A DNA stretch of 29,132 nucleotides from a virus. The notes beneath the pieces were generated by a model. That model was given only the letters and a program-made list of their open reading frames with translations, had not been told where the DNA came from and did no database searches. The stretch covers positions 1 through 29,132 of the IMG/VR virus record IMGVR_UViG_3300020400_000025; one strand, written 5' to 3'. Positions 1,491 to 24,997 of the stretch are shown piece after piece (within the stretch, counting starts at the first letter, position 1; each line of letters begins with the position of its first letter). A program made the translations under genes and the position numbers.

Positions 1491-1511
1491 GCGGGGCATG
1501 ACCCCGCCTTT
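1491..1511 (+). terminator. Hairpin terminator GCGGGG/CCCCGC + TTT
   Basis: A perfect 6-bp GC stem (1491-1496 with 1502-1507), loop CATGA, followed by CTTT. It is part of the series of GCGGGG-type hairpins that close most cassettes of this region. Confidence 0.65.
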
Positions 1512-1535
1512 ACCATTCAAAACAGGAGATATGAA

Positions 1536-2171
1536 ATGGAAAATGTAAACCTAAACACTGACCTTGTTAAAGCCGTTGTATCCAATGAGAAGGCTATTAA
1601 TCGCCGCAAAGCGAAAAATGCCGACAACACGGCGCAAAACAACACGGCCCGTCTGGAAAACTACGCGGGTATCGCTGTCGAGATTGCCGACCCCAAGCGC
1701 TTCCCGCGCAACAAGAGCGGCGAGAATTTTTTCGACACCACAGTGTCCGGTGAAATCAAGCGTCAGCTTGAGAACGCTGGGGTCAGCGAAAGCCAAGCCA
1801 AGTACTACTACCGCTTGTCGACCAAGCTGGTCGAAAGCCTCAAGCTGAACGGCAACGCTACAGTCACCCAAGTCGCGGAATTTTTCGAGGCCAACAAAAT
1901 TACCAGCGAAGCCAAGCTGAAAGCACATTTCAGCGGCGACAGCACCAAGTCAGCCTATGACAAATTGCTGGATAAGGCTGTCGGGCGGCTGACTAAGACG
2001 GGCAGTGTCTCGACACAGGCGGCTGTCTTAAAGTCGGTCGCTGATATCGAGAAGTTCGCGGCTGATTGCAAGGCACGGCTTGCCGATGCCCAGCGTGAAG
2101 GCGAGGCTGTCAAAAAGGTGGTCGCAGAAAACAAGACCGCTGAGGGTGTCCTTAACAAGGTCACCGCTTAA
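1536..2171 (+). CDS. Hypothetical phage protein, 211 aa
   Basis: I cannot assign a family. The ATG at 1536 follows AGGAGAT at a suitable distance. The first 40 residues are Asn/Lys-rich and probably flexible. The centre (about 45-140) looks like a compact helical domain with aromatic and charged residues (SQAKYYYRLSTKLVESLKLN). The last 50 residues form a long charged helix (DIEKFAADCKARLADAQ) that may be a coiled coil. The composition would fit a nucleic-acid-associated protein, but no catalytic or metal-binding motif is seen. It sits alone between hairpins at 1491 and 2174. Confidence 0.85.
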   Translation: MENVNLNTDLVKAVVSNEKAINRRKAKNADNTAQNNTARLENYAGIAVEIADPKRFPRNKSGENFFDTTVSGEIKRQLENAGVSESQAKYYYRLSTKLVESLKLNGNATVTQVAEFFEANKITSEAKLKAHFSGDSTKSAYDKLLDKAVGRLTKTGSVSTQAAVLKSVADIEKFAADCKARLADAQREGEAVKKVVAENKTAEGVLNKVTA

Positions 2172-2173
2172 TC

Positions 2174-2198
2174 GCGGGGGGTAGCGCCCCCGCCTTTT
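2174..2198 (+). terminator. Hairpin terminator GCGGGGG/CCCCCGC + TTTT
   Basis: A perfect 7-bp stem (2174-2180 with 2187-2193) with a 6-nt loop, followed by C and four T. It starts two bases after the stop of the 211-aa gene. Confidence 0.7.
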
Positions 2199-2224
2199 CA
2201 CTCAATATCAGGAAGGATGAAAAA

Positions 2225-2599
2225 ATGGAAATTAGCACCACGACTAACGGCAACAACACTATCACGCTTGAAGTAGAACACGGCGTGTACATACTGGCCG
2301 AACAGCTAACCGCCGACCGCTACAGGGTATCCCTGCACAGTCACCACAGCCAAAATTTTGCTATCCATAGCTGGTGGAAACCTTGGCTTCAAAAAGATGC
2401 TAAGGGCAACCCATACGTTGAAGGCGAGGAATTGCTGGGCGGTATGCCCTTTGCATATATCGTTAACGCGGACGGGCTATTTATGGCACGAACACGGGCG
2501 CGGTTTGTCGTCAAGCGCATGAAGGTCAAGGGCGAGTTACCCGCTAGCTTGTCCGAACAGTTCGCCAGTGAGTATGACCAAGCGGTCAGCGTTTCCTAA
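2225..2599 (+). CDS. Hypothetical phage protein, 124 aa
   Basis: Not recognised. The ATG at 2225 follows AGGAAGGATGAAAAA, a strong purine-rich ribosome binding region. The product looks like a small alpha/beta protein. The N-terminus is Thr/Asn-rich (residues 4-14), a His/Trp-rich middle follows (HSHHSQNFAIHSWWKPW, about 38-54), and a basic strand (RTRARFVVKRMKVKG) lies at about 89-103. There is no signal peptide or membrane helix. It is a single-gene cassette closed by the UUCG-loop hairpin at 2603. Confidence 0.82.
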   Translation: MEISTTTNGNNTITLEVEHGVYILAEQLTADRYRVSLHSHHSQNFAIHSWWKPWLQKDAKGNPYVEGEELLGGMPFAYIVNADGLFMARTRARFVVKRMKVKGELPASLSEQFASEYDQAVSVS

Positions 2600-2602
2600 C
2601 TT

Positions 2603-2622
2603 GCGGGGTTCGCCCCGCCTTT
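2603..2622 (+). terminator. Hairpin terminator GCGGGG-TTCG-CCCCGC + TTT
   Basis: A 6-bp GC stem (2603-2608 with 2613-2618) capped by a TTCG tetraloop, a very stable RNA fold, then CTTT. The dyad at 2624 begins two bases after the T-run. Confidence 0.72.
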
Positions 2623-2623
2623 A

Positions 2624-2637
2624 AGTTTCATATAACT
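2624..2637. promoter_or_regulatory. Dyad AGTTTCATATAACT before the 57-aa gene
   Basis: An AGTT-N6-AACT family member directly downstream of a terminator, followed by TTTT and the CAGGAGA ribosome binding site. It contains TATAAC, a possible -10, but no -35-like hexamer is found upstream because the terminator occupies that place. Confidence 0.65.
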
Positions 2638-2653
2638 TTTTCAGGAGAAAAGT

Positions 2654-2827
2654 ATGACCAGAAAAGAAATTATATCGGACGTCTTGTGTGATTTATACGA
2701 CATTCAAAAGGTCGTAACACCGCTGTGTGGGAATATGCCAAAAGACAATGAAGGGACTGAGACAACTATCAGTGACTGCATTGTAAACTGCATTGAACAA
2801 TTAGAAGGAATACAAGAATGTTTGTAA
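2654..2827 (+). CDS. Small cysteine-containing protein, 57 aa
   Basis: This gene is short but well supported. AGGAGAAAAGT precedes the ATG at 2654, and the stop overlaps the ATG of the next gene (2818), so the two are probably translationally coupled. The product is acidic and helical with five cysteines (residues 12, 25, 42, 46 and 54). Two of these form C-x3-C (42/46), but there is no zinc-finger spacing I recognise. It forms a two-gene cassette with the membrane protein that follows. Function unknown. Confidence 0.72.
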   Translation: MTRKEIISDVLCDLYDIQKVVTPLCGNMPKDNEGTETTISDCIVNCIEQLEGIQECL

Positions 2828-2982
2828 GCATATTTACTACGGCTATGGGCTTGATTGTCAGCCTGCTCACCGCGCTGGTTATTCCATACGGCGACCCAGT
2901 TATCAACACAATCACTGGGTTGATTGGTGTTGCATTTATGCTTGGCGGGTGCGCTGGTATTCACTGGCACAGAAACAAGTAA
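2818..2982 (+). CDS. Small membrane protein, 54 aa, two predicted helices
   Basis: The ATG at 2818 lies inside the last codons of the upstream gene and is preceded by GAAGGAA. The product is almost entirely hydrophobic. A first membrane segment spans about residues 2-23, a Pro/Gly/Asp turn (YGDP) follows, and a second segment spans about 30-48, with a short basic tail (HWHRNK). This hairpin topology is shared by small holins and by many early phage membrane proteins. The lysis amidase lies far away at the right end, so a holin role is only a possibility. The GCGGGG hairpin at 2988 follows. Confidence 0.7.
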   Translation: MFVSIFTTAMGLIVSLLTALVIPYGDPVINTITGLIGVAFMLGGCAGIHWHRNK

Positions 2983-2987
2983 CGCCT

Positions 2988-3007
2988 GCGGGGTTTGCCC
3001 CGCCTTT
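2988..3007 (+). terminator. Hairpin terminator GCGGGG-TTTG-CCCCGC + TTT
   Basis: A perfect 6-bp stem (2988-2993 with 2998-3003) with a TTTG loop, then CTTT. It is followed at once by the inverted repeat at 3009-3030. Confidence 0.7.
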
Positions 3008-3020
3008 CACATGCAAAATT

Positions 3021-3034
3021 AGTTGCATGTAACT
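3021..3034. promoter_or_regulatory. Dyad AGTTGCATGTAACT with an upstream matching half
   Basis: A family member 19 bp before the ATPase start. Its left part pairs with an upstream copy: ACATGCAA (3009-3016) and TTGCATGT (3023-3030) form an 8-bp inverted repeat with a 6-nt spacer. The locus could be a double binding site or an RNA hairpin just ahead of the ribosome binding site. Confidence 0.65.
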
Positions 3035-3052
3035 TTCATCAGGAGAAAAAAG

Positions 3053-4069
3053 ATGAGACTATCAACAGCGATTAATATTATCAAAGCATCATGCGTAGAC
3101 CAATGGTCAGCACATGGTGGGCAATACGTCACCTGTTACCTTGAAGGGTCAGCAGGCGGCGGCAAGACCAGCGCAGTGCGACAGGTTGCGGACGAATTGA
3201 ATGCAGTCTTTATTGACCAGCGTCTGACAGACCGCGACTTCACTGAGGTATCAGGCTGGCGTATCCCCAATGCAGATAATTCTGCAATGATACACCTGAC
3301 GCCTGACTGGTTCGACTTTGACCCAGCCAAAAAATATGTCCTGTTTTTTGACGAATTGCCACAGGCACCCGTCACTAATCAGAACATTGCCGCTCAGATT
3401 ATCAACGAGCGGTCACTGGGCGGCCATGTCTTGCCTGACAATGTCGCAATCGTCTGCGCTGGTAACCCAGCTAAGGACAGGTCTGGCACGAACACCATGC
3501 CGACCCACCTACGCGACAGGCTGACATGGCTGGCAATCGAAAGTGACCTAGAGGACGTTGTCGGTTACTTTGCGGCGAACAATCGTGACCCGCTTGTCAT
3601 TGGCTACCTCCGCGCTCGCCCCGATAACTTGCATAAGTTTGACAGGGACGCGAAGGCTTGCCCTAGCCCTAGAAGCTGGGACAAGGTCAGCACACTGCTG
3701 GGCTTTGATTTGCCAGAGGGCGCGTTTCAACACGCTATTTTTGGCACAGTCGGTGACGGGGTAGGCGCAGACTTTCTAGCCTATCGCAAGCTGACAACCA
3801 AAGCCCCCGCTATATCGGATATCATTGCCGACCCTGCGGGAACCAAACTGCCCGAAGAGAGTGACGTATTGTATGCGCTTTGCGCTGGCATCTCCGCCAG
3901 CATGAAGCCCGACAATGCCTCGCCTCTGTGCGAGTACCTAGACCGCATCTCACAAAAAGAGATGGTTGCTTTTGTCATGCGTGACGCACTGAAGCGTGAC
4001 CCTGATTTGAAGCAGGCCAATGCGGTGCGCGAATGGGCGCTAAATGGCGGGGTTGATTTGTTCAACTAA
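3053..4069 (+). CDS. MoxR/CobS-like AAA+ ATPase
   Basis: This is a 338-residue single-domain AAA+ ATPase. Walker A is GSAGGGKTS (residues 32-40, Lys38). Walker B is VLFFDE (96-101, Asp100 and Glu101). Sensor 1 is the Asn in AGNP (138). Arginines in LRDRL (154 and 156) are finger candidates. The core matches MoxR-type ATPases, including CobS of cobaltochelatase, which remodel partner proteins carrying a VWA domain. Such a partner is encoded next (4131), strengthening the call. The ATG at 3053 follows AGGAGAAAAAAG; an upstream in-frame start would read through the dyad and ribosome binding site. The target of the pair in the infected cell is unknown. Confidence 0.9.
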   Translation: MRLSTAINIIKASCVDQWSAHGGQYVTCYLEGSAGGGKTSAVRQVADELNAVFIDQRLTDRDFTEVSGWRIPNADNSAMIHLTPDWFDFDPAKKYVLFFDELPQAPVTNQNIAAQIINERSLGGHVLPDNVAIVCAGNPAKDRSGTNTMPTHLRDRLTWLAIESDLEDVVGYFAANNRDPLVIGYLRARPDNLHKFDRDAKACPSPRSWDKVSTLLGFDLPEGAFQHAIFGTVGDGVGADFLAYRKLTTKAPAISDIIADPAGTKLPEESDVLYALCAGISASMKPDNASPLCEYLDRISQKEMVAFVMRDALKRDPDLKQANAVREWALNGGVDLFN

Positions 4070-4073
4070 AACT

Positions 4074-4097
4074 GCGGGGTTTCGCCACCCCGCCTTT
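4074..4097 (+). terminator. Hairpin terminator between the ATPase and VWA genes
   Basis: Stem GCGGGGT (4074-4080) with ACCCCGC (4087-4093), loop TTCGCC, then CTTT. It separates two genes whose products are expected to work together, so they are not a simple bicistron. Confidence 0.7.
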
Positions 4098-4098
4098 A

Positions 4099-4112
4099 AG
4101 TTTCATATAACT
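4099..4112. promoter_or_regulatory. Dyad AGTTTCATATAACT before the VWA gene
   Basis: Identical to the copy at 2624. It sits right after the terminator T-run and 18 bp before the ATG at 4131, with the ribosome binding site ATCAGGAGA between them. Confidence 0.65.
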
Positions 4113-4130
4113 TTTATCAGGAGAAAAATT

Positions 4131-5279
4131 ATGGACACAGAACTTAAAATTGCACGTTCACGCACACAGGCTCTCATCCGCGCACCCTTTTATGGGGCTG
4201 TGCTTATGGGATTGCCCAGCGAAAAAGCTACAGGTCAGACTGAAACAATGGCGACCGATGGCAAGCGTGTGCTTTACGAAAGCGTGTTCGTTGACGGGCT
4301 GACCGAAGACGAATTGCTGTTCGTGAATTGCCATGAGGCATTGCATGTTGCTTTTTGCCACCACCTACGCAGGGGTGAGCGCGATGCCAAGCTGTGGAAT
4401 ATTGCCACAGACTATGCAATCAATATCCTGCTTTCAGATGCCAGCATAGGTCATATGCCAGCAGGTGGATTGCTCAACCCAGACTATCGGGACATGAGTG
4501 CGGAGCGCATCTATGACTTGCTCAGACAAGAGCAGGAGCAAGGCGGCGCAGGTCAAGGCGATGGAACAGGTACAGAACCCTGCCCTTGGGGTGAGGTTAC
4601 TGAACCCACCAATGACGATGGCTCACCATTGTCAGCGGAGCAAGTCGAGGCAATGGAAGCTGATATATCTCAGCGCATCATTGCGGCGGCTGACAGAGTG
4701 CGCGAAGCGGGCGGCGATTTGCCTGACGCTGTGAGTGAACTTATCGAGGAACTGATGACCCCGAAGGTAGACTGGTGCGATGTATTGCGGCGGTTTGCTG
4801 GCGGCGAACAGCCCGATGGTGTCACCTACCAGCGGGTCAATCGCAAGCACTTCCATCACGGTCGCATGATTATGCCCAGTATCGACCGCATTGGTTGCGG
4901 TCATATCGTGGTCGGTATCGACAGTAGCGCATCACTGAGCAAGCCAGAACTTGCACAGTTTGTCAGCGAACTGAGCGCGGTGACCGAAGAACTATCACCC
5001 GAAAGCGTGACGGTTATCGTCTGCGACACACGCATCCGCGAGGTGCATCACTATGGCAAGGGCGATATCATTGATGCGCTTAATATCGAGGGTCGGGGCG
5101 GCACAAAGGTCACCCCAGTCTTTGAGTATATTGACGAGCATGGTCTGGACGTAGACAGCTTTATCTACTTCACCGACTTGCATGTTCGCGACTTCCCAGC
5201 ACCGCCTAGCTTTCCCACGCTGTGGGTCAGCACTGGCGCAGACAAGGCTCCATTCGGAGAGATAGTCAAGCTGGACTAA
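4131..5279 (+). CDS. VWA-like protein with HExxH motif (COG3864/DUF2201 type)
   Basis: The product has 382 residues. The N-terminal part (about 1-130) has the putative metallopeptidase signature HEALH (68-72) within NCHEALHVAFCHHLRRG. An acidic, Gly/Gln-rich linker follows (about 133-175). The C-terminal half (about 258-382) is a VWA-like fold with a complete metal-ion site: DSSAS (264-268), Thr325 in GRGGTKVTP, and TD at 348-349. The arrangement matches the bacterial family annotated as COG3864, whose members are encoded beside MoxR ATPases. CobT shares the VWA part but is not known to me to carry HEALH. Together with the gene at 3053 it probably forms an ATPase-driven chaperone or metal-insertion machine. 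Start chosen from AGGAGAAAAATT before the ATG at 4131. Confidence 0.88.
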   Translation: MDTELKIARSRTQALIRAPFYGAVLMGLPSEKATGQTETMATDGKRVLYESVFVDGLTEDELLFVNCHEALHVAFCHHLRRGERDAKLWNIATDYAINILLSDASIGHMPAGGLLNPDYRDMSAERIYDLLRQEQEQGGAGQGDGTGTEPCPWGEVTEPTNDDGSPLSAEQVEAMEADISQRIIAAADRVREAGGDLPDAVSELIEELMTPKVDWCDVLRRFAGGEQPDGVTYQRVNRKHFHHGRMIMPSIDRIGCGHIVVGIDSSASLSKPELAQFVSELSAVTEELSPESVTVIVCDTRIREVHHYGKGDIIDALNIEGRGGTKVTPVFEYIDEHGLDVDSFIYFTDLHVRDFPAPPSFPTLWVSTGADKAPFGEIVKLD

Positions 5280-5303
5280 GCGGGGGCGCAAGCCCTCGCC
5301 TTT
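5280..5303 (+). terminator. Hairpin terminator with GCAA tetraloop
   Basis: An 8-bp stem (5280-5287 with 5292-5299, including one G-T pair) capped by GCAA, a GNRA loop, followed by CTTT. It begins one base after the stop of the VWA gene. Confidence 0.7.
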
Positions 5304-5317
5304 CGAGGTGTAACAAA

Positions 5318-5331
5318 AGTTACATCTAACT
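5318..5331. promoter_or_regulatory. Dyad AGTTACATCTAACT with an upstream matching half
   Basis: A family member before the 310-aa gene. As at 3021, its left part is complementary to a segment just upstream: AGGTGTAAC (5306-5314) and GTTACATCT (5319-5327), a 9-bp stem with one G-T pair and loop AAAA. Confidence 0.65.
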
Positions 5332-5351
5332 TTTCATCAGGAGAAAATGAT

Positions 5352-6284
5352 ATGGAAGATATCAAAAAAATGTACCCATTGCCTTTTGGTTTTGCCGATA
5401 ACACTCGTGACGAAACTGATAGGCTCCGCAAGCAATACTCTGTACCCAGTGAGGTTATGCAAGAGTTATCTAGCAGGGGTGTTCGAGGTGTTCGCTGGTC
5501 AAGTGACAAGGTTGTAGACGATTACGTCCACAAGCTGGAAGCGGAGTACGGCGACAACTTTTCGGACAGTGTACTTGGTTATATCGCTGGACTGATGCGT
5601 CAGATTTCTAACGCACGGGAACGGCACAATGACCAAAAGACACATGGTCGATTTGAGCCAACCCCGCGCCCCACATTGGACGACTATATTGCGGACAACT
5701 CGCGTCAGTTTGCGGGTGTCTGGAACCGTAGCTTCAAAAGAACAATCCTTTCTTTTGCCGACAGAGATACTTACGCTGGTATTGCGGTAAGTTTTGGGGC
5801 TAAAGATTTCGCCAGCAACGCCCAAGGCTTCAATAATTCGGAGCGTCTTAGGGGTTGTGGACACAGCAAAAAATGCTCAATGGAAGTCGATGGCTTCTAC
5901 CAGACTGTCGTATATTTTGACGACAAGGGTGAGCAAAACGGGAACCGCCTAGACCATTTCAAGCTAGGACTGGACTGGTGGCACCGCTACCAGAACAGGA
6001 TTGGGAGCGTGAATGTCGGCGGCAAGTATTACCTTGTCACGAACTGCCGCAAAGTAGACCACCCCTATGTCGATGAAGCAGACCGCCAGTGCTATGAAGC
6101 GCATGTGGTCGGGGTCATCAAGGGAACCTTGGATTACAAGGTCGGCTACCTTGTCGCACACACTGGTCACAGCAAGGTGACCACGGCTTTCGGTGAAGGT
6201 GACGGTGGTGCGAAGACCGCCAGTCAGCTACTCGACAGACGACTAAAGAAGAGCGTGGTCGATACACTTATCGACAGTCTCTAA
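5352..6284 (+). CDS. Hypothetical phage protein, 310 aa
   Basis: Not recognised. The ATG at 5352 follows AGGAGAAAATGAT. The N-terminal third is charged and helical (about 1-95). A Pro-rich linker (PTPRPTLDD) near 103-111 leads into a C-terminal region with alternating aromatic and beta-like segments. Cys169, His171 and Cys175 (CGHSKKC) with a later NCRKVDH and a Cys near the C-terminal third could bind a metal, but this is only a suggestion. Flanked by GCAA-loop hairpins on both sides, it is a one-gene cassette directly after the MoxR/VWA pair. It might therefore be linked to them, as substrate or adaptor, but nothing proves this. Confidence 0.85.
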   Translation: MEDIKKMYPLPFGFADNTRDETDRLRKQYSVPSEVMQELSSRGVRGVRWSSDKVVDDYVHKLEAEYGDNFSDSVLGYIAGLMRQISNARERHNDQKTHGRFEPTPRPTLDDYIADNSRQFAGVWNRSFKRTILSFADRDTYAGIAVSFGAKDFASNAQGFNNSERLRGCGHSKKCSMEVDGFYQTVVYFDDKGEQNGNRLDHFKLGLDWWHRYQNRIGSVNVGGKYYLVTNCRKVDHPYVDEADRQCYEAHVVGVIKGTLDYKVGYLVAHTGHSKVTTAFGEGDGGAKTASQLLDRRLKKSVVDTLIDSL

Positions 6285-6287
6285 TCT

Positions 6288-6315
6288 GCGGGGGGCGCAA
6301 GCCCCCTGCCTTTTT
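6288..6315 (+). terminator. Strong hairpin terminator with GCAA tetraloop + TTTTT
   Basis: A 9-bp stem (6288-6296 with 6301-6309, one G-T pair) with a GCAA loop and five T. It is the strongest terminator of the cassette series apart from the one at 7571. Confidence 0.75.
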
Positions 6316-6328
6316 GTTTCATATAACT
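6315..6328. promoter_or_regulatory. Dyad-like TGTTTCATATAACT before the 176-aa gene
   Basis: It matches the copies at 2624 and 4099 except for the first base, which belongs to the preceding T-run. TTTTTATCAGGAG follows. Confidence 0.55.
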
Positions 6329-6346
6329 TTTTATCAGGAGAAGATG

Positions 6347-6877
6347 ATGAACGTACAACAGAAAGACTACAAATTGCGGGGTGGCAAGCTAAAAATCACC
6401 TCAATCCAGCCAGCCAACGAAGCCGTGATGCAACAGCGCATTGCAGATGCCAAGCGGCTTCAACCGCATTTAGACGACAGCTTTATCCGCGCTAGTTTAG
6501 AGCGTGAGGAAAGGGCAGAGGTTTGGATAAACAGCCATTATCAAATCAACGTGTATCGCGGTCACGATGCGGACGAGTTAGTGCATGTCACAAAATTGCA
6601 GGGCAGATGCACATGGCTGTCGATTAAGCGGCGTGACAAAAAACCCGTTAACTCATGGCAGGATTTCCAGACTATCAAAAATGTTCTGGTTGGTGAGGGC
6701 TGTGACGCGATACAGATTTATCCAGCCGAAGAGCGCTTGATGAATACTGCGAACCAATACCACCTGATTTGCTTGCCAGAAGACACCTCGTTACCATTTG
6801 GTTGGAAACGCAGGTTTGTTAAAACGGAAAGCGGCACTACGGCTGGCGGTGCGCGACAGGACTACAGCGGCTCTTAA
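6347..6877 (+). CDS. Phage protein with a DUF7694-like C-terminal domain, 176 aa
   Basis: The C-terminal part (about 85-155) has the sequence style of a small domain common in phage and prophage genomes, which I believe is DUF7694. It runs WLSIKRRDKKPVNSWQDFQ, then IKNVLVGEGCDAIQIYPAEERL, then NTANQYHLICL, ending near LPFGWKRRFV. Its biochemical role is not known to me. The N-terminal 80 residues are charged and helical. Two adjacent ATG codons (6344 and 6347) follow AGGAG; the second has the better spacing and gives the stated start. The 3' end is unusual because the stop codon lies in the loop of the terminator hairpin (6867-6886). Domain family is likely, number less certain. Confidence 0.8.
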   Translation: MNVQQKDYKLRGGKLKITSIQPANEAVMQQRIADAKRLQPHLDDSFIRASLEREERAEVWINSHYQINVYRGHDADELVHVTKLQGRCTWLSIKRRDKKPVNSWQDFQTIKNVLVGEGCDAIQIYPAEERLMNTANQYHLICLPEDTSLPFGWKRRFVKTESGTTAGGARQDYSGS

Positions 6878-6891
6878 CGGAGCCGCCTTTT
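6867..6891 (+). terminator. Terminator hairpin enclosing the stop codon of the 176-aa gene
   Basis: GCGGCTC (6867-6873) pairs perfectly with GAGCCGC (6880-6886), then CTTTT. The stem starts inside the coding region and the TAA stop (6875-6877) lies in the loop. Confidence 0.7.
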
Positions 6892-6904
6892 GTTTCATAT
6901 AACT
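6891..6904. promoter_or_regulatory. Dyad-like TGTTTCATATAACT before the 55-aa gene
   Basis: Identical to the copy at 6315, with the same downstream sequence through the ribosome binding site (TTTTTATCAGGAGAA). The exact repetition of more than 25 bp in front of two unrelated genes suggests recent copying or strong selection. Confidence 0.6.
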
Positions 6905-13462: not shown

Positions 13463-13885
13463 ATGAGTGAGTACAGAGAGGCCGCGCTATCTTTCGAGGC
13501 CGTTAAAATTGGGATGACGCAGAACAAGGACGGTATAATACTGCGCCTTGCTGTGCATCCGCAGGAATGTCCGCCCAAGTTGCATACCGACTTTGTGGGT
13601 CAACGATATGGCGTGGCTTTAGTTGCGCTGGCAGATGACGAAACGCCCAAGCATGGGCCAGAACTCGAAGAGATTAAGAAGCTGAAGGCAAGTGCGGGAG
13701 CATTGTGCCGTGATGCCGACTTCCAAGTTTTTCTTGGGGCATCCTCGGAAGATTCCGCGACTGACGTATTGCGAACTAAATTGGGTGTGCAATCGCGTAG
13801 TGAGTTTGATGACAATGCAGATGCAAGAGTTAAGTTTGTTAAAATTAGACAGGAGTTTCAAGCATGGCTGAAGAACAAAAAGTAG
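13463..13885 (+). CDS. Conserved phage protein of unknown function, 140 aa
   Basis: I have seen this type in phage recombination operons without a known role. Typical pieces are FEAVKIGMTQNKDGIILRL (about 11-29), then an HPQECPP segment, then VGQRYGVALVALADDE (about 45-60). The C-terminal part is charged and helical with a late W. It may be a small beta-domain accessory of DNA replication. Two adjacent ATG codons (13460 and 13463) follow TGAGGA; either could be used. The 3' end overlaps the next gene by 22 bp. Confidence 0.72.
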   Translation: MSEYREAALSFEAVKIGMTQNKDGIILRLAVHPQECPPKLHTDFVGQRYGVALVALADDETPKHGPELEEIKKLKASAGALCRDADFQVFLGASSEDSATDVLRTKLGVQSRSEFDDNADARVKFVKIRQEFQAWLKNKK

Positions 13886-14100
13886 TCCCTGAAAAACCTC
13901 AGAAAGAATTTATAACGCTGTACGAGGCGTTGGACATTCTGGGGGTGACCAGAAAAACTATGTACAACCTGATGCAAGAGGACGAGAGCTTTCCAAAACC
14001 GTTCTCTTTAGCAGTCACGGACAGTCCACGGGGGCGGCAGAACTACCGTTTTGACAGAGAGGAATTAATCAAATGGGTCAAGGCAAGGCGAGTGAAATAA
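13864..14100 (+). CDS. AlpA/excisionase-like DNA-binding protein, 78 aa
   Basis: This is a small MerR/AlpA-type winged helix protein. ITLYEALDILGVTRKTMYNLM (17-37) is the helix-turn-helix, RGRQNYRFDREEL (56-68) is the wing region, and IKWVKARRVK is the basic C-terminal end. Proteins of this kind act as transcription regulators or as excisionases. No integrase is visible here, so a regulator is more likely. It is the clearest sequence-specific DNA-binding candidate in the window and a possible reader of the dispersed dyads. The ATG at 13864 follows AGGAGTTTCAAGC inside the previous gene. Confidence 0.82.
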   Translation: MAEEQKVVPEKPQKEFITLYEALDILGVTRKTMYNLMQEDESFPKPFSLAVTDSPRGRQNYRFDREELIKWVKARRVK

Positions 14101-15790: not shown

Positions 15791-18700
15791 CTACCTATAT
15801 AGCTCCGACACAACCATGTTGCCGCGCTGTGTGGCACGTTGCAGTTGCTCATCTATCTTGTCGAGCATCTTTTGTTTGGTAACTTCTGGTATGCGGGGGT
15901 TCTTAGCTATTTTTGCTTTCTTTCTTATCAACCTGTTTCTTGCGTTGTTGGTTGCCTTCATGCGCCCAAGTAATTTGAGTTCTCGCTGATACTGTGAGCG
16001 TATGGATTCAATCCTGCCCCTATCTCTACGGGCGATAGCGTCTTTGAGGTCTGCCTCTATCGTCAGTATCTGGTCGCGCCCAGCAATAAACCTAGTCGTG
16101 TCTTCTCGCGAACTGACGGAACCAAATATTTTGCGGGTGAAAGGTATTTGTCTCAGACCCTCTTCACTAAACAACGAGGCAGGGTCGTCCACAACATTGA
16201 AAGCAAATCGCCCAGACCGCTCAACGAACCGCCCGACACCGCCCGTCAAAAATCCATACCAGTATTCCATTGAATCTGGCGACCAATCAATCAGACCAGA
16301 CTTGGCTGGCGAACCACCTGTTGCAGTGTTCAGGAAGTCTGCGGTGTTCTTAAATATCGGAGATGTTGTTGACCAGTAGAGTTGACTGTCTGGTTTCTGC
16401 AATCCGAAAGGCGAGCCTTCTTTGTAGATAGGCTTATTTGCGAAGTCCTCGTTCTCAACGATGTCAATGAACGGGTCAAGCACAGTCGGGAATACAAAGT
16501 TAAACATGCTCTCTGTCCCGCCAATCGGATTAACCGCATCCACAAATGTGCCAAAGAACGAGTTGGTAAACTCTCCATTTGTATATGCACCCCGCCCTCT
16601 TCTTGAAAGACTGCGCCCCATATTAACGGCAAAGTTTAGGCCGTATGGTAGCGGGATTGATGTGTAACCCCTGTCTCCAAATCCAAACGGCAGTATGTAG
16701 TTATGCTCCAGCACATAGTCGGGTATCTTGTCGTATATTTTTTGACCATCCTCGTCCTCTTCAGAAAGAAGGGCATTTGCTTGGTCTTGCAAGAACCCGG
16801 CGACAACGGCGCTCATCCATATAGCCCGAACTTTTTTGCTTCTTGTGGCGGCAGTCATCAGCGCAAAGCTACCTTGGATAGATGCGTTATAGAAAAGATA
16901 TAGCGAGTTCATCAGAACCTTTTGCTCGCCACCTTTGGAAAAGTTGACTGTAACATTTCTTGCGGCCTGTCCTGCCCTCTCCCGCGTGAAACCTTTTTCA
17001 CGCAATGTTTTGTAGGTTGCAACGCGGATGCCGTTTTCTATAACGCTGTTGTAGTTTTCGACTAGCTGGGCAAGGGGGCTGTTGGTTAGCTTATCCAAAC
17101 CTTTCTTGAACTGGCTGACCAGCTTCGGGTCATTTGCTTCGCCTAGAATGCTGTCCATCTTGCCTAGCTGTTGCTCTAGGCTGTCAATCATATTAAGCGC
17201 ACTCTGCCCGCCATCCTCTAGGAACTCTTCATATACTTGCGATAGCTCGTTTGTTTCCCCATCTCTTATAATCGCACGCAAGTTCTTTAAGGTGCGCGGG
17301 ATTGACTTAGCCACATCTTTGGTTATGCCTTCTATTTCATTGGCATTTATATTTGTAAGTCCAGTTGTGATGTCACGCAGGAAGTTGGTTACAAAAAACT
17401 CAGGGTTGTAGCTTGTGTTAATACTAGACAAGAACCTATTGACGCTGGTCATCGCCCTGACAAGGAAGTGTGAATTATCTGGCCCTAAACCTGTTGCGCC
17501 CTTCAATGCCTTGGCAATGCGCGGGTCGTTCAGGGTTATCTGAACTTCCTCACCATTAACCTTAACGGTCATCACGTTGGGGTCGTCCCTGTTAACGCTA
17601 CCTATTGATTTAACAAAGCCGTTCTTGTCCATAATTTTGACGGACTTGGCCCTTTGCCCGACAGTCGCAACACCCTGTACGATGTCTCTGTATTCATCCA
17701 CCCGCTCCACAGAAACCGAACTGTCTCCAGCATCTATGCGCGATATAAGCTCTTCCTTTTGTGCTTCAGTAATTCTATTGCTGTCTTGTATCTCTTGTAT
17801 TATTTCTTCTCTGGAGCGCTCAAGCTCGACAACTTCGCCCTGCCTAACGACAGTTCTTTTGTTGGTTATCACCTCTGTGTTGTCTATCATTTTCAGGAAT
17901 GACTGACCCACTAGATTGCGTTGCCCACGGTCTATTGCTCTTTGGTGCTGGTTGAACAGCGAGGCGACAAGATTGTCTGGGTAGCTACCACGCCCCAGAG
18001 CCGCTATGTATTCTTTGCCCTTGGCTCCATATTTGTTGGCAGTCTTTCTTCTTATCTCATTAAGTTCTGCCTCAGTCTTATCTGAATCAATCTCCAAGAA
18101 GCCTTTCAACGGCACATAGTTTTGGTATTGCGGATATGGCACTCGTTTTTGCGTGCCTTCGTAGGTAAGCTCTTGCTGTCTATCCGGCTCAAGCCCAGTT
18201 GCAATGTTCATTTTTCTTGTAGTTTCTACAAGGTTTTGCACATCATCAGATATACGTTGCAAATCCGCACGGGCGGCAGGGTCAGAGTTTATAATACCAA
18301 GTATTGCATCTGCCTCTGCGTCCGTCATACCTGAACCACTGTCATTCTTGGGGTCTATCTGGCGTATGTATGCGTTTCTTTCTTTTGCGTGTAACGCAAA
18401 CAGATATGTTTCTGCGAGTGCAAGCTGTGAGTTCTTGCCTATCTGTATCATGCTTGCAAAGAAACCCTTGCCATCCTTGCCCTGCACATTTTCCAAGGCG
18501 GCTTGCAGTCTGGGTGACACTCCGAGAGCTTTGATGTTTTCCAATATGGGCTTAAATAAAATCTCTTCGGCCCTGCGTAGCATGTACCCAGTCTTGTTAT
18601 GGTACTGCTCTTCCATGAGATAAGTGTCAAACGCATCTGGAACTTCAAACCCAGCCTTGCGTATCTCATCTATGAATTGTCCAACAGGCAGGAAAGCATC

Positions 18701-21700
18701 CTGCAATTTAGTGACTAAGTTATCTGTAACTTCTTTGGCATCAATGTCCCCGAACAGACCTGTTGAGGCGAGTGCCTTTATCGGCACGCCCAAAACCTTC
18801 GCCATAAACTCTGCGTTTTTACCGTACAGATAAACGCCCTTCGCATTGTCTACCTGTGTTCCAGCATCGGGATTTACCGCGACCGTTGGGTGCGTAGGAA
18901 CGATGCTGAACTTACTTCCCTGTCGTCTTGCAAGTCGTTTAGCCCTTTTCTCCGCAGGCATATTCCTTATTTTATTATTATCTATGGCGTCATCTATTTC
19001 TGCCTGAACGCCGACAAGTTTGGCTATGTCTCTTTCTGCGGCTCGCCTTTCTTGAGGGTAGGCCGTTACGATTAAATGAAGTCTATTCGCCAAAGCCTGT
19101 TGTTGTTTAGCGTTAAGCTCAAGCCCGTCTGTGGCATCAACTATATCGCTTAATTCATTTGGAAAAATTCTGCGTGTAATTAGACGCATGACTTTTGTAT
19201 CGTCTAGTCCATTGTTCTTACCGAACCAATAGAACTCAGTCTTATATGCTTCCGTTGGGTAAATTTCGCTATTAATATCTGGTATTTTTGTGGCTTTTAT
19301 AACGCCGTTTATTTTTCCTATCTTGTTTCTGTTTAGCTCAAACGTGCCATCCGGTCTTTCTTTAACAGGTATGCGGATACCTACATTATTTTGAACATCC
19401 AACTGCCCCATCAAGGCTTCTATGGCTTGTTGGGCAGTGGTATATTTGCTGGCCTCTTCTTGTTTGCCGTCCGCGCCCACAACATTTTTGACACTGGCCC
19501 TTGCAAAGTCATTGTTTTTGCCGCCCTCTTCCATGTGAGCAAGACCATGCTGTAGCCCCTTGCCGTTATCTATAACGTGTCGCCCGTTGGTCAGAAAGAT
19601 TGTTTTTTCAACGCCATCTCTGTCAACAAACTTTCCAAATCCCCTACCGCCATCTGACTTTGGTATCAGTTCAAACTCTGTTTCTAATATGCTGTATTTG
19701 GTGTTTGCGTTTTCAGACGGCTCACGGGCGGGCAGTGCCTCAAGAAATTCATCTGGGTCTTCTAGTACCCTTGGCGGGGCTTCTTCTAGTCCTCGCTCTG
19801 TTCTGTAGGCATCGTTAAGCCTTTCATTGATTGTCCATCCGTAGGTGTCGGCGTAGGTTTGCTCGACTTCCCTTGCACGGTTCTGGAGTTCTGCGATGAG
19901 AAGAGTGGCCCGCTCGAATAAATCGGGTCTTCCTTCCCTAATTCCTTGAAGATAATTTTCACCATTAAAGTTCTCCGTCCAGTTGTTAAATAAATATCCC
20001 GTTTCTGAATAAAAATTTGCAAGTCCTACTTCTTCTAACCCCAGCTTATCGCCAGCCCGTTGCACAGCATTTGCTACGCCGTCTTGAAACGCAATGTTCT
20101 CTTGTCTTTTTAGTTTTACGTTGGCTTCATCACTGTACATATAAGGCCAATGAATAATTCTTAGACCTTCTCTTGAGGCAACACCCCCAAACTCTCCGTG
20201 TCCAAACTCTGCCTGCATCTCTTCTGCAAACACTATCTGCTCATCAGGCGTAAGCGTTCTGCCTATATCAATAAGAACGCTGTTTCTGTCGCCCTTGTTT
20301 ATTGATGTTTGGAAGAATGGCCTGTGCCACCCAACGCCATCCTGCTTGAGAACAATACCCATAACGGCGGCGTATGCGTTTAGATTGTCTATTGACCTGT
20401 CATCAAGGGCAAAATCTTTGTTATCATCTTTTTTTCTGCTAGGCGCGACAACCTCTGTCTGTGTGCCGGGGGATGTCCTGCCTTCAAAGAACCCCGGCGC
20501 TACGAAATTATCTGGCGTGACTATGCCGAACATTTCAGCGATTGAATCGAAGCCCTCATTGTCAAGGAATACCTTACTCATATCGACATGGAACTGAGAC
20601 AACACGGCAGGGTCAGCGTCAAACGCTTCATTCAAATGACCGCTATCAAAGCTAGGTATGCTTTCCCAGCTTATCTGTGCGAGGTTCTTCTTCATTCCAT
20701 CCGCATAATCTTGAGCAGGATAGTTAGAGCCAACTTTTTCTGTGCCTTCTTGCCGTGACTTGTACGCCACCCAGATGGCGGCCTGCACTTGCTCTGGCTC
20801 CATGCCGTTGGCATCTGCTAGGCGCTGTATCTCGCCACCAATAAATTTAATCTGCCCTTGAGTGGGTGAGCCTTCGCGCTTGTAACCAAATGCTCTCTGC
20901 ATCCACAGGTCAATCGTTACATCTTTTGTGTCCCCGTAGTTTTCGGGGTCAATATGTTTCATAAGGTTTTTGTAAAATGGATTTATCTTCAAGCCTCTTG
21001 GCTCTGCCCCGTCCAGTATTTCTTGTAGCTGGTCTGCGCTGGCAAACCTAATGCCACGCATGGGCTGTCCTGCTCTATGCTGATAGTATGCCCTGACCGC
21101 AAGCATAAAGTTTTCATCAACCTCTGTTTGCTGTGATGTCTTCGCTATCAGCCCAGCAAGTTTGCGGGCTTCTTCTTTGTTGTAAGCAGTAGCCCTGAGT
21201 ATCGCCTCTGCGCTTTTCTCGTACCAGAAGGCATTGCCAATACCGTCCTTGAACAAAAAGTTTAGACGCCGCCTCAACGCACCAAGCTGTTGCGGGTTCT
21301 CCAAATGCGGGGCAGTGGGAAGATATGAGTATTTGATTGTGCCTGTTGGGTCAAACAGGCCAGTAGTGTTCAATCCCATGCCATCAAACGGTATGCGGTT
21401 TCTGCCGCCATCGTGAATGGCATTTACTATTCTGTCCTTTTTGTCCTGAAGTTTTGCTTCAGGCAGGCGGTTGTCACGTTGTCGAACATCGCCCGACATA
21501 ACAATAGCTTCATGTTCCGATTGATTATCTTTAATTAAGGCATCCATGTGAATAAGCACATCTTCATTATTTACGAGATATGTCTCCATCAACCGCGCTC
21601 GCCCTTCTAGCCACGGCAGATTCGATATTTTTTCTTCATTTCTAAATATGGAGGGGTCTGTCGTAAAAGACATAGCCTCGTTTGGTCGTAGTTCGCCCAC

Positions 21701-24700
21701 GCGATAAAGGGTGGTGACGCCAGTTCTTGTGTTCTTTTCCTTGCCCCTTAAAACTAATTGTCGTTGCGTTATCTCATACGCTTCTGCTCGGATGTCTCGC
21801 AAATCTTGTGTCGTAAACGTCTGGTCATTATGTGATGGTGCGTCATCGCCATACCTTAAATCGCGGGGGTTTCTGCCAGCAATACGCTGATATGATGCGC
21901 TCAACAGAAATGCTATGTATTCAAGGTTAACAGACTCACCCTTAATTTTTCTGGGGTAATAAGATTGTGCGTACATTTGGCTGTCTGTCTGCTCTTCCGC
22001 CGCAATCAGGAATGGCTCGGCCTCTTCCTGTAGGTGTTCAAGAGTTCTTCTCTTGGTGGCTGTGTCCGAGAAGTCAAACAGAAGTTTTATTGTGTCGGCA
22101 AACTCAAAGGGGCTGGTGGATACTCTTTCTAGAAGTCTTAATTTGCCGCTACGTTCCCCATCATAAAAATCAACAGGCGTAATGCTGTACTTAATATTAT
22201 TAACTTGGTTTCTGGCATCCTGTATCGCTATGTCTGTGGTGATGGCTTCGTCTAATTCTTCTTCAGTTAGCGCACGGGTAACAACATCCAGCGCTACATC
22301 GTTCACGCTATCTTTAATTGTATCTGCGTCAGGCGTTGCTACTCCCTCACGGGCAACCCTTGCCCTGTTCTCGGTGCTTGCTATTTCACCGCTTTCAATG
22401 GATGCAAATATCTGGTCGGGACTTGTAAAGCCAGTATCTCCGAAGCCCCTCATAATCCCTTTAAAGAAGTCTATAATCCTGTCGAATAATGTCTTGGTTG
22501 TGCCGACTACCTTCATCTGACCGCCCGCATACAAGCGGAACATCTCGGCAATAGCCTCTTCGACTACCAATGCCTCATCACCCCTAGCGCCATAAGTTCT
22601 TTTTGCGCGGTCATAGAATGTGTATTCGCGTACCTCTGTTGAGCCGTCCCTGTTCACCTTTACAAACTTGCGTGACTTCGCGGCTTTTGTGAGGGTTGCC
22701 CATTCTTTTTGTGTGAATAAGCCTAGGTCATATAATGCGTGCAGTGTTTCATGGTTTAGCACTCCCATAACACCAGCTTCAAATTCCTGCGGGTCTACAT
22801 CCAGACCGTGCATCGCTGTAGCCAGTGTGATTACCTTCTCACTAGGATTGTAAGAGCCTTGTGCTAACGTCCCTTCTGGCCCATCTAATTTAGCAACCAC
22901 GTTTACTGCGGCGAGGTCTTCGTCTATCCCTACTTCTTTCAATCTTTCTTTGACTTTAACCTCGACATCCTGCCGTGCGTTTTCAAACTTGGCAGTCGCC
23001 CTGATTGCCTCATCTCTTTTAGTCCGCGCCCTGTTTTGAGCCTCAGTGTTTAGCTGTGGCCCCTGCTTTGACCTTGCAGATTTGCGGGCAGTCCTTTGAG
23101 CTTTGATAACTTTAGCTAACCTGTCTAGTTCTGACTGGCTTTCTGCTATGCGAGAGCGGGCGTCCTCTATCTCCGCTATGGCTTTCTTGTATTTTTCTGG
23201 TTGTTTCTGCTCCAGCTTTGCTATCTTTTTTTCTTCTTTCTGTATCTGCCTATCTGCCGCCTCTATGGAAGTGTTTAATTCAGCAACCCTTTGCTCAAGC
23301 TCTCTAATTGGTTGCGCCTTTGTTTCGGCATCGGCAGTCGCCGCGTACTTGTTTCTTTTGTATTCCTCTATTACGCCGTCAGCCACCATGCGCCGCCTAA
23401 TAGCTACTGCGCCAGCCCTGTTTGTCTTGCTGACTTTCATAATATCTTGAACGCTTACATTCGCGTTATCGACAACCTTGCCTTCATTGTCTCTAGTTTG
23501 AGAAATGGCTAGGCGAACAGCTTTTTCATATTGTGACCACCTAAAACCATCGGGTCTTTGGAAGTATATTTCTGGCGCACCATCTACAGTGCCTCTAAAC
23601 GTCAGGGGTTTTTGCTCCCTCGCAATACGATTAGCGGCACGCTTGCCAAGGGTTTCCTGTATTTCTGGTATTTCAATATCTCTACCGGGTTCCGGGTCAC
23701 CTCGGTTGGCTCGCGCATCCCGAACTTTTTTTTGTTCTGCCTTGCTAAGATGAGATAATTTTACAGGGGAAAAGTTGGTTGCAACTTCTTCGTTAATACC
23801 AGACAGAACTGCCGCCCTGCTTTCGGGGGGTATGTTCTCTTCGTTAAACGGCACGGCCTCTTGCTCAAGCACACCTATCTGCGGGTCGTCTATCTCGGTA
23901 AGGTTTGCCGCCCTGTTCGACAGTCTGTCGTACTCTTTTTGTTGCGCTATACCATCGTTAGCCCGTTCTATTTCTTCCAGTCGGTCTGCCTCTAGCTGTG
24001 TCTTTCCTACCGTTTTTTCTTTTTCGCCTTTAACCGCGTCAATGGCACCGCGCACTGTACCACCAACGATGCCAGCGGCGATGCCAACCTCAACATATTC
24101 TTTAATCGCTTCTTCGCTATCAATCGGCTTACCAGCTTGCATGCGTGTTAAGATTGTTTGACCTATTTCAGTTGGCACTTCTGTTATTGCGCCCTTAAAA
24201 GCACCAACACCAGCCCGCCCAGCGAGCGCCCTTTTCGCGCTCTGTTGCATAGCAGGGGTCATTGATTTACTGGAGATAAAAGACTTTTTAGTCAGAAGGG
24301 GTTTTGCTATTTCGCCTCCCAAGCCAAGCACTATCCTGTCGCTAAGGGTGTCTAGAAATGTTGCAGGCAGTGCAAACAAAGCCGCCGCGCCATCATCAAC
24401 ATGCGGTATTATACCCTCTGCTACGCTCTGGTCTTGTTCCAGTAGATTTTCACCAAACAATATCGGGTAGTTCAGGGCCGCGCCCGCGCTTGCACTCAGG
24501 ATGCCTGCGCCCACAGCGCCAAGGCCAAGCACTGGAGCCGCCACCGCCGCCCCTGTCGCGCCGACAGCCGCTGGCAAAAGCGTTGCAATTCCTTGTCCTA
24601 GAGTTTCTCCAACGTAAGTAAGGCCAGACCCTACCCCTGACACATCTTCAAGGCGTGTAGCGTATTGCGCTACGTCTTGTAGCTCTGCTTCATTGTGAGC

Positions 24701-24997
24701 AACAACCTCTTCACCATATTCTTCAAGACCCGCGAAGCCAAGGTTCTCGCCTACAGACTGAAGCGCCCTGCCAAACATCATTTGTGTTTGGTCTATGCCC
24801 ATGCCGAAGCCCCTGCCTAAAGCTGTCCCCGGCGGGTTGGTTATTTTTTCAATTTCTTGAGCTGATATTTGAAGTTCATCGCCTTGTTGAGCTACAAGGT
24901 TTTTGAAGTTTTCAAGCTCTTTTGGCGTGGGGTTATTGCTCGCAATCTGCGCTTGATATACCTGACCGCTTTTCCCTAATCTATATATAGTCCCCAT
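15791..24997 (-). CDS. Giant polyvalent virion protein, 3068 aa (zincin + LPD38)
   Basis: A single uninterrupted frame of 9.2 kb. The N-terminal 330 residues are Gly/Ala-rich with hydrophobic stretches that could insert into membranes. A charged coiled coil lies near 555-635. A zincin-like protease motif HETLH (749-753) has a downstream EEAIAEMF helix (813-820), as in large polyvalent phage proteins. A conserved helical domain near 1245-1420 (SQQTEVDENF...AVRAYYQHRAG) is also of a type embedded in such proteins. Near 2520-2560, NPEFFVTNFLRD is typical of the LPD38 region. The C-terminus is basic and helical. Such proteins are packed in the virion and thought to be ejected into the host. The ATG at 24997 follows the upstream stop by 4 bases with a poor ribosome binding site, so translational coupling is likely. 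Confidence 0.95.
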   Translation of the reverse strand: MGTIYRLGKSGQVYQAQIASNNPTPKELENFKNLVAQQGDELQISAQEIEKITNPPGTALGRGFGMGIDQTQMMFGRALQSVGENLGFAGLEEYGEEVVAHNEAELQDVAQYATRLEDVSGVGSGLTYVGETLGQGIATLLPAAVGATGAAVAAPVLGLGAVGAGILSASAGAALNYPILFGENLLEQDQSVAEGIIPHVDDGAAALFALPATFLDTLSDRIVLGLGGEIAKPLLTKKSFISSKSMTPAMQQSAKRALAGRAGVGAFKGAITEVPTEIGQTILTRMQAGKPIDSEEAIKEYVEVGIAAGIVGGTVRGAIDAVKGEKEKTVGKTQLEADRLEEIERANDGIAQQKEYDRLSNRAANLTEIDDPQIGVLEQEAVPFNEENIPPESRAAVLSGINEEVATNFSPVKLSHLSKAEQKKVRDARANRGDPEPGRDIEIPEIQETLGKRAANRIAREQKPLTFRGTVDGAPEIYFQRPDGFRWSQYEKAVRLAISQTRDNEGKVVDNANVSVQDIMKVSKTNRAGAVAIRRRMVADGVIEEYKRNKYAATADAETKAQPIRELEQRVAELNTSIEAADRQIQKEEKKIAKLEQKQPEKYKKAIAEIEDARSRIAESQSELDRLAKVIKAQRTARKSARSKQGPQLNTEAQNRARTKRDEAIRATAKFENARQDVEVKVKERLKEVGIDEDLAAVNVVAKLDGPEGTLAQGSYNPSEKVITLATAMHGLDVDPQEFEAGVMGVLNHETLHALYDLGLFTQKEWATLTKAAKSRKFVKVNRDGSTEVREYTFYDRAKRTYGARGDEALVVEEAIAEMFRLYAGGQMKVVGTTKTLFDRIIDFFKGIMRGFGDTGFTSPDQIFASIESGEIASTENRARVAREGVATPDADTIKDSVNDVALDVVTRALTEEELDEAITTDIAIQDARNQVNNIKYSITPVDFYDGERSGKLRLLERVSTSPFEFADTIKLLFDFSDTATKRRTLEHLQEEAEPFLIAAEEQTDSQMYAQSYYPRKIKGESVNLEYIAFLLSASYQRIAGRNPRDLRYGDDAPSHNDQTFTTQDLRDIRAEAYEITQRQLVLRGKEKNTRTGVTTLYRVGELRPNEAMSFTTDPSIFRNEEKISNLPWLEGRARLMETYLVNNEDVLIHMDALIKDNQSEHEAIVMSGDVRQRDNRLPEAKLQDKKDRIVNAIHDGGRNRIPFDGMGLNTTGLFDPTGTIKYSYLPTAPHLENPQQLGALRRRLNFLFKDGIGNAFWYEKSAEAILRATAYNKEEARKLAGLIAKTSQQTEVDENFMLAVRAYYQHRAGQPMRGIRFASADQLQEILDGAEPRGLKINPFYKNLMKHIDPENYGDTKDVTIDLWMQRAFGYKREGSPTQGQIKFIGGEIQRLADANGMEPEQVQAAIWVAYKSRQEGTEKVGSNYPAQDYADGMKKNLAQISWESIPSFDSGHLNEAFDADPAVLSQFHVDMSKVFLDNEGFDSIAEMFGIVTPDNFVAPGFFEGRTSPGTQTEVVAPSRKKDDNKDFALDDRSIDNLNAYAAVMGIVLKQDGVGWHRPFFQTSINKGDRNSVLIDIGRTLTPDEQIVFAEEMQAEFGHGEFGGVASREGLRIIHWPYMYSDEANVKLKRQENIAFQDGVANAVQRAGDKLGLEEVGLANFYSETGYLFNNWTENFNGENYLQGIREGRPDLFERATLLIAELQNRAREVEQTYADTYGWTINERLNDAYRTERGLEEAPPRVLEDPDEFLEALPAREPSENANTKYSILETEFELIPKSDGGRGFGKFVDRDGVEKTIFLTNGRHVIDNGKGLQHGLAHMEEGGKNNDFARASVKNVVGADGKQEEASKYTTAQQAIEALMGQLDVQNNVGIRIPVKERPDGTFELNRNKIGKINGVIKATKIPDINSEIYPTEAYKTEFYWFGKNNGLDDTKVMRLITRRIFPNELSDIVDATDGLELNAKQQQALANRLHLIVTAYPQERRAAERDIAKLVGVQAEIDDAIDNNKIRNMPAEKRAKRLARRQGSKFSIVPTHPTVAVNPDAGTQVDNAKGVYLYGKNAEFMAKVLGVPIKALASTGLFGDIDAKEVTDNLVTKLQDAFLPVGQFIDEIRKAGFEVPDAFDTYLMEEQYHNKTGYMLRRAEEILFKPILENIKALGVSPRLQAALENVQGKDGKGFFASMIQIGKNSQLALAETYLFALHAKERNAYIRQIDPKNDSGSGMTDAEADAILGIINSDPAARADLQRISDDVQNLVETTRKMNIATGLEPDRQQELTYEGTQKRVPYPQYQNYVPLKGFLEIDSDKTEAELNEIRRKTANKYGAKGKEYIAALGRGSYPDNLVASLFNQHQRAIDRGQRNLVGQSFLKMIDNTEVITNKRTVVRQGEVVELERSREEIIQEIQDSNRITEAQKEELISRIDAGDSSVSVERVDEYRDIVQGVATVGQRAKSVKIMDKNGFVKSIGSVNRDDPNVMTVKVNGEEVQITLNDPRIAKALKGATGLGPDNSHFLVRAMTSVNRFLSSINTSYNPEFFVTNFLRDITTGLTNINANEIEGITKDVAKSIPRTLKNLRAIIRDGETNELSQVYEEFLEDGGQSALNMIDSLEQQLGKMDSILGEANDPKLVSQFKKGLDKLTNSPLAQLVENYNSVIENGIRVATYKTLREKGFTRERAGQAARNVTVNFSKGGEQKVLMNSLYLFYNASIQGSFALMTAATRSKKVRAIWMSAVVAGFLQDQANALLSEEDEDGQKIYDKIPDYVLEHNYILPFGFGDRGYTSIPLPYGLNFAVNMGRSLSRRGRGAYTNGEFTNSFFGTFVDAVNPIGGTESMFNFVFPTVLDPFIDIVENEDFANKPIYKEGSPFGLQKPDSQLYWSTTSPIFKNTADFLNTATGGSPAKSGLIDWSPDSMEYWYGFLTGGVGRFVERSGRFAFNVVDDPASLFSEEGLRQIPFTRKIFGSVSSREDTTRFIAGRDQILTIEADLKDAIARRDRGRIESIRSQYQRELKLLGRMKATNNARNRLIRKKAKIAKNPRIPEVTKQKMLDKIDEQLQRATQRGNMVVSELYR

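Follow-up and report, generated by a model that had tools for sequence, protein, structure and literature searches.

Genes gp24 and gp25 of phage N4 are two of the 14 core genes of N4-like phages (PMC4193335; also PMC2784036) and are expressed as middle transcripts (PMC4193335). In 2021 a MoxR–vWA pair with an N-terminal metallopeptidase was described from group 2.2 jumbo phages and proposed to act in virion assembly and in the processing of structural proteins (PMC7824862). MoxR ATPases are hexamers with VWA partners, and in NorQ/NorD the pore of NorQ takes up an extension of the VWA protein, and the linker of NorD is remodelled by the action of the ATPase (PMC13036017). Our literature searches found no functional experiment on N4 gp24/gp25 and no biochemistry for any member.

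Here we analysed a 29,132-base virus record from a marine phage, the whole of which we call the window; its first 15,790 bases have no near-identical match among phage records. An AAA+ ATPase gene near its left end stands beside a gene for a protein with an HExxH motif and a VWA domain (Table 1), an assignment first made from the sequence alone and now confirmed by Pfam and PHROG matches. The pair is of an already known kind, that of N4 gp24/gp25. The pairs of N4 and of G7C (the Schitoviridae core pair) have the same two families in the same order, on the same strand and with the same motifs; the G7C proteins match the family profiles with E values of 4.5e-68 and 1.7e-76, and expression in N4 is non-late. 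The window proteins are nonetheless below about 32% identical to the schitovirus members and have other upstream and downstream neighbours, and the 29 kb showed neither a schitovirus-type RNA polymerase nor any further hallmark of N4.

The best named-phage relatives are gp07 and gp15 of Roseobacter phage CRP-7 (36.5% and 32.2% identity). Like the window genes they occupy a left-end, early-type position, lying to the left of the DNA polymerase, primase and RNA polymerase genes, but they are separated by 1.66 kb containing seven small genes, whereas the window genes are adjacent, and CRP-7 has a T7-like RNA polymerase, of which none was found in the available sequence of the window's clade. The jumbo-phage pair (PMC7824862; compare PA5oct gp149/gp144 and Eneladusvirus) agrees with the window in domain architecture and pairing but has been read as serving virion assembly, whereas the context of the window pair is DNA metabolism. 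RavA–ViaA and NorQ–NorD also combine a MoxR AAA+ protein with a VWA partner, and sequence comparison of the window proteins with the solved structures of these two systems gave no match. To our knowledge, the partner in both has been described without an HExxH peptidase domain.

Table 1. Features of the window discussed in the text
Feature	Position	Strand	Details
211-aa protein	1536–2171	+	upstream of the ATPase gene; in 23 loci of the clade
GC-rich hairpins with CTTT tail	2174–2193, 2603–2618, 2988–3003, 4074–4093, 5280–5299, 6288–6309, 6867–6886		before most early genes
AGTT-N6-AACT palindrome AGTTGCATGTAACT	3021–3034		before the ATPase gene; operator-like
AAA+ ATPase (MoxR/AAA_5-like), N4 gp24 family, PHROG 1297	3053–4069	+	338 aa; ATG at 3053, stop at 4069; Shine-Dalgarno AGGAGA
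ATPase motifs			Walker A G32–K38; Walker B D100, E101; sensor 1 N138; R156; R207
GC-rich hairpin between ATPase and VWA genes	4074–4093	+	7-bp stem, terminator-like, short T tract
AGTT-N6-AACT palindrome AGTTTCATATAACT	4099–4112		between hairpin and Shine-Dalgarno of the VWA gene; operator-like
Putative metallopeptidase (DUF2201_N) and VWA (DUF2201) protein, N4 gp25 family, PHROG 1314	4131–5279	+	382 aa; ATG at 4131, stop at 5279; Shine-Dalgarno AGGAGA
VWA protein motifs			HExxH part H68, E69, H72 and D94; MIDAS D264, S266, S268, T325, D349
310-aa protein	5352–6284	+	directly after the VWA gene; fast-evolving family
HTH_17/AlpA-like DNA-binding protein	13864–14100	+	78 aa
Giant protein	15791–24997	−	3068 aa
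DNA-ejection-like protein	26067–27395	−	

Conserved motifs of the ATPase and its VWA partner

The ATPase belongs to the N4 gp24 family: PHROG 1297 ('ATPase') matches it as a full-length profile over residues 27–329 (E = 1.4e-73), and Walker A, Walker B, sensor 1 and sensor 2 are intact. It scores under the curated Pfam cut-offs for AAA_3 (15.4 bits versus 27 required), AAA_5 and AAA; among 27 members of the family, AAA_3 was matched by 10 and bpMoxR by 9 at E ≤ 0.01. Searching solved structures by sequence returned weak PspF matches alone, at E = 0.66 or worse. The partner belongs to the N4 gp25 / PHROG 1314 / DUF2201 family, with both domains, HExxH and a full MIDAS. It matches PHROG 1314 (E = 1.4e-99) and, far over cut-off, both Pfam DUF2201_N ('putative metallopeptidase domain', 110.5 bits, E = 1.5e-31) and Pfam DUF2201 ('VWA-like domain', 95.5 bits, E = 3.3e-27). 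Its AlphaFold2 model has a pLDDT of 81, and Foldseek matched its C-terminal part with VWA domains, the MDN1 MIDAS domain among them; the N-terminal domain had no convincing match among the matches listed, and a sequence search of solved structures returned nothing. These results support the proposed likeness to bacterial COG0714/COG3864 pairs, the AAA+ and VWA-metallopeptidase parts being intact.

Conservation was scored in alignments of IMG/VR loci and named phages, 64 sequences for the ATPase and 71 for the VWA protein, with smaller alignments run besides. In the ATPase, G37 and K38 of Walker A, D100 and E101 of Walker B and N138 of sensor 1 are present in all 64 aligned sequences, as is R207 at the sensor 2 position; R156, at the arginine-finger position, is present in 57. 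In the VWA protein, H68, E69 and H72 occur in 69 of the 69 rows with letters there, D94 in 70 of 70, and the five MIDAS residues in 69–71 of at most 71 rows. One outlier among these rows, gp569 of phage G, was considered as a VWA partner and rejected, as it has no VWA profile match. Invariance or near-invariance of these sites at identities down to 22–30% indicates that ATP hydrolysis, the metallopeptidase motif and the metal site of the VWA domain are all under strong purifying selection. D94 would be a third metal ligand, and the HExxH motif together with this invariant aspartate suggests that the protein is a peptidase. The sequence-only reading had called the motifs complete and expected the machine to be active; the first part stands on this conservation, from which the second is predicted.

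The invariant peptidase motif bears on one suggested role, a cofactor supply of the CobS/CobT or NorQ/NorD type in which the pair would supply an enzyme of the phage or the host with its metal. Metal insertion is the work of MoxR/VWA pairs such as NorQD (PMC13036017). Against such a role, H68, E69 and H72 are invariant in the window family, no metalloenzyme gene is consistently adjacent to the pair, and no tested window protein has a CobT or CobN family match, so that the pair does not qualify as a CobS/CobT cobaltochelatase; the match of phrog_249 (phage CobS-like) to the window ATPase covers 36 residues around the P-loop at E = 0.0029. We know of no description of CobST or NorQD with an HExxH peptidase domain, which we also count against metal insertion. 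The CobS/CobT-like idea thus found no support, and we regard metal insertion as very improbable.

Genes of the gp25 type are widely labelled 'HNH endonuclease' or 'homing endonuclease' (PHROG 1314; NC_071039 gp144, NC_031104 gp37, OR805295 Paride). Pfam and PHROG searches found no HNH domain in the window VWA protein, which suggests that the HNH label on many of these phage genes is wrong; it may have arisen from the HNH genes that several phages have between the two members of the pair (G7C gp24.1, SBP1 gp30).

Pairing of the two genes in phages and bacteria

The pair is genomically inseparable in every genome tested: independent occurrence was looked for in IMG/VR loci, in named phages and in bacterial genes, and the proposed pairing withstood the search. 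First, tblastn found 764 phage records with the VWA protein and 755 with the ATPase, two separate lists counted gene by gene, with nearly equal host-genus counts. Second, among 75 IMG/VR loci the ATPase is present in every one with enough upstream DNA; the loci without it start inside or just before the VWA gene. Where present, the ATPase gene lies upstream of the VWA gene on the same strand, a single locus (L055) having the reverse order. Third, 10 diverse named phages were searched over their whole records with profiles, and both the VWA gene (10 of 10) and the ATPase gene (10 of 10) were found throughout. Both genes are still present in the named phages in which they are distant, 3–5 kb apart or on opposite strands; in PA5oct they are 2.9 kb apart, and in the Vequintavirus CarlMeissner they are on opposite strands. 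Bacillus phage G was considered as an ATPase-only case and rejected when the whole-record search located a VWA gene about 4.4 kb downstream. Finally, 13 of 16 bacterial DUF2201_N genes, drawn from 199 genomes of one phylum, have an ATPase gene within the short flank fetched.

The exceptional record, 2556921664_000001 in IMG/VR, shares its ATPase score and, with an offset of 84 bases, nearly the same place with a locus on the Anaerovibrio lipolyticus chromosome (L095), both having the order VWA, then ATPase. This 'virus' record therefore appears to be a piece of the Anaerovibrio lipolyticus genome.

Plasmid cassettes, genome layout and candidate roles

Relatives of the VWA protein were found in 60 plasmid records, mostly from Burkholderiales, and relatives of the ATPase in 88. 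Plasmids of Burkholderia ambifaria (pBMC401), Cupriavidus, Rhodovastum and Paraburkholderia share the order ATPase, a protein of about 300 aa, VWA protein; this compact three-gene cassette is present in four of the five plasmid loci examined, the ATPase gene lying farther upstream in the Simplicispira plasmid. The outer two proteins (for example in pBMC401 and Rhodovastum) are of the same families as the window proteins, at 28–37% identity. Some of the plasmids that bear the cassette are conjugative, and T4SS genes adjoin it in those of Burkholderia and Paraburkholderia.

The middle protein was found in 42 plasmids, and the gene between the pair in 27 marine IMG/VR phage loci encodes its homologue (hhalign probability 99.7%, E = 3e-25; hmmsearch down to E = 5e-59). 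A Planktothrix/Synechococcus phage protein, annotated as DUF3150 in one record, is also homologous, and one member of the family (from L065) passes the Pfam DUF3150 cut-off. Phages and plasmids thus have a common three-gene cassette. New here is the cassette on plasmids, in which the third gene is DUF3150-like; our literature search found no paper mentioning DUF3150. By contrast, no middle protein is detectable in the window, in which 62 bases separate the ATPase and VWA genes. The cassette HMM found no DUF3150-like gene in the window, which places it outside the three-gene cassette; a PF11348 search of the window also gave no match, but its positive controls were silent too. As the window has no detectable DUF3150-like gene, the cassette of the plasmids may serve another purpose.

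Other genes accompany the pair in the window's clade. The 310-aa gene, singled out by the sequence-only reading, is real, and most of the window's clade has a member of its family (clusters c83, c65 and c23) immediately after the VWA gene; hhalign related c83 to c65 at 93%, c65 to c23 at 85% and c23 to c83 at 36% (E = 4e-4). Searches with Pfam, PHROG, PADLOC and NCBIfam gave no match to the window protein, and we claim no function for it because its model is weak (pLDDT 69, pTM 0.49) and the best structure match is poor (E = 0.088); it is possibly an accessory protein or substrate adaptor. CRP-7 gp16, which has the same place after the VWA gene, is not detectably related to it. The 211-aa protein upstream could likewise be an accessory gene. 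Both proteins were considered as DUF3150-like middle proteins, and no homology was detected. Different genes lie between the pair in other clades; in L025–L032 and L046 an Nmad5 (nucleotide modification associated domain 5) protein separates ATPase and VWA (Pfam E = 6.2e-9 in L028). The various third genes may be subunits that replace one another or passengers with no tie to the pair.

The genes around the pair in the wider clade bear on where it acts. Among the IMG/VR loci, the + strand holds the pair with an exonuclease (34 of 34) and a DNA polymerase (9 of 9), and the − strand holds the small terminase (47 of 47), the large terminase (36 of 36) and the portal gene (27 of 27); the − strand also holds the primase/helicase, in 35 of 36. 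From 15,791 on, the window encodes its ejection-like and large polyvalent proteins on the − strand. DNA-metabolism genes thus accompany the pair in the window's clade, and the packaging and portal genes lie opposite to it. The giant protein of the window has an LPD38 (large polyvalent protein) domain near its C terminus, DUF7178 in its middle and an HETLH motif; given its place near the ejection-like protein, it is perhaps ejected with the DNA.

This layout, new here as evidence, argues against virion assembly as the role in the window's clade. That role, proposed for the group 2.2 jumbo phages by analogy with the chaperone of an archaeal two-tailed virus (PMC7824862), casts the pair as an assembly chaperone and maturation protease that folds or assembles structural proteins and trims them; virion maturation was also among the roles first suggested for the window pair. 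It fits the Eneladusvirus pair, which adjoins a run of putative structural genes, the capsid decoration gene near gp24 in G7C and the virion proteins encoded near gp24/gp25 in roseophage RPP1 (PMC4193335). An ESI-MS/MS note on the ATPase in PA5oct and a single peptide of the ATPase in purified particles of jumbo phage DC4 point the same way, but the DC4 authors caution over chaperone co-purification. Three further points speak against the proposal: the pair is a middle transcript in N4 (PMC4193335), it lies on the non-structural strand in the window's clade, and its genes are also carried by plasmids, some of them conjugative, and plasmids form no virions. The plasmid cassettes and the gene layout together weaken the proposal, and we consider it unlikely. 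The plasmid genes open the one published functional idea to testing and make it less probable as a role of the pair in general; they favour an intracellular machine instead.

We therefore favour, with slightly better than even confidence, a single intracellular ATP-driven machine for remodelling or proteolysis that acts early or in the middle of infection on a putative host or mobile-element target. Its mechanism can be modelled on NorQ/NorD, and this analogy and the conserved sites together suggest ATP-driven remodelling or regulated proteolysis. The AAA+ protein would most likely form a hexameric ring on which the VWA domain docks, with the MIDAS metal site binding the target or an adaptor. 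ATP hydrolysis would then remodel the VWA partner and the bound target, and either present the remodelled target to the N-terminal HExxH metallopeptidase, which would cleave it, or switch the peptidase on. The occurrence of the genes on plasmids suggests a function that serves incoming DNA of more than one kind, and since phages and plasmids both carry the machine, its target is probably a protein complex, of the host or of a mobile element, with a bearing on incoming DNA in general. The role may differ between lineages.

A related possibility is that the pair is a counter-defence or host-takeover protease that dismantles a host immune or control complex harmful to incoming DNA. The machine is common to lytic phages and conjugative plasmids, the Burkholderia and Paraburkholderia cassettes are next to T4SS genes, a fast-evolving neighbour could be a target adaptor, and expression precedes the late genes in N4 (PMC4193335). 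However, no known anti-defence homologue was found, and neither PADLOC nor NCBIfam matched the ATPase, the VWA protein, the 310-aa protein or the 211-aa protein. The pair is also universal in the N4-like core, not patchily carried (PMC4193335), and such status is more in keeping with an essential function than with an accessory weapon. We hold counter-defence to be quite unlikely. Nor does the window qualify as a MoxR–vWA ternary conflict (defence) system, as Pfam and PADLOC found no VMAP, iSTAND, FtsH or beta-propeller protein among its neighbours, although these third components evolve fast and a very divergent one could escape such a search. A more specific version of the favoured machine, which we offer as a speculation with low odds, is a widespread AAA+/VWA metalloprotease module, common to lytic phages and conjugative plasmids, that would remove a host complex blocking newly entered DNA and whose third subunit, exchangeable between carriers, would choose the target; the subunit may be DUF3150-like in plasmids and some phages and other proteins in the window's clade.

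Hairpins and palindromes before the early genes

The terminator-like hairpin between the ATPase and VWA genes had been suggested to set their ratio. It is kept in the closest relatives (L003–L005), where stem bases have changed on both sides. Similar hairpins, however, precede most genes from 1500 to 6900, giving each gene its own terminator-like element, and in sister phages (L014–L023) the ATPase and VWA genes are 8–9 bases apart. The hairpin is therefore a general gene-spacing feature of the genome; this explanation is new here, and the idea of a ratio-setting terminator specific to the pair is not supported.

Six of the early-gene hairpins are followed by AGTT-N6-AACT, or a form one base off, 29–34 bases before the start codon. 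This palindrome or near forms of it occur at 275, 857, 2624, 3021, 4099, 5318, 6315, 6891, 7605, 9472, 10088 and 14119, with the consensus AGTTACATGTAACT. Exact copies number 12 in the window versus 1.05 expected from shuffles, and a longer form of the palindrome has 33 matches versus 2.8 expected. Relatives keep the half-sites around clade-specific centres: CTATAG in L008–L011, CACCTG in L006 and L007, and AATGGT or AACTTT in L015–L023. A T7-type RNA polymerase was considered as the reader of these sites and set aside, none having been found in the window's clade. On the simplest reading of the repeats, they would be a set of operators bound by a phage regulator. The window also encodes a small HTH_17/AlpA-like DNA-binding protein (Table 1), a candidate regulator or excisionase, which is possibly the reader of the palindromes.
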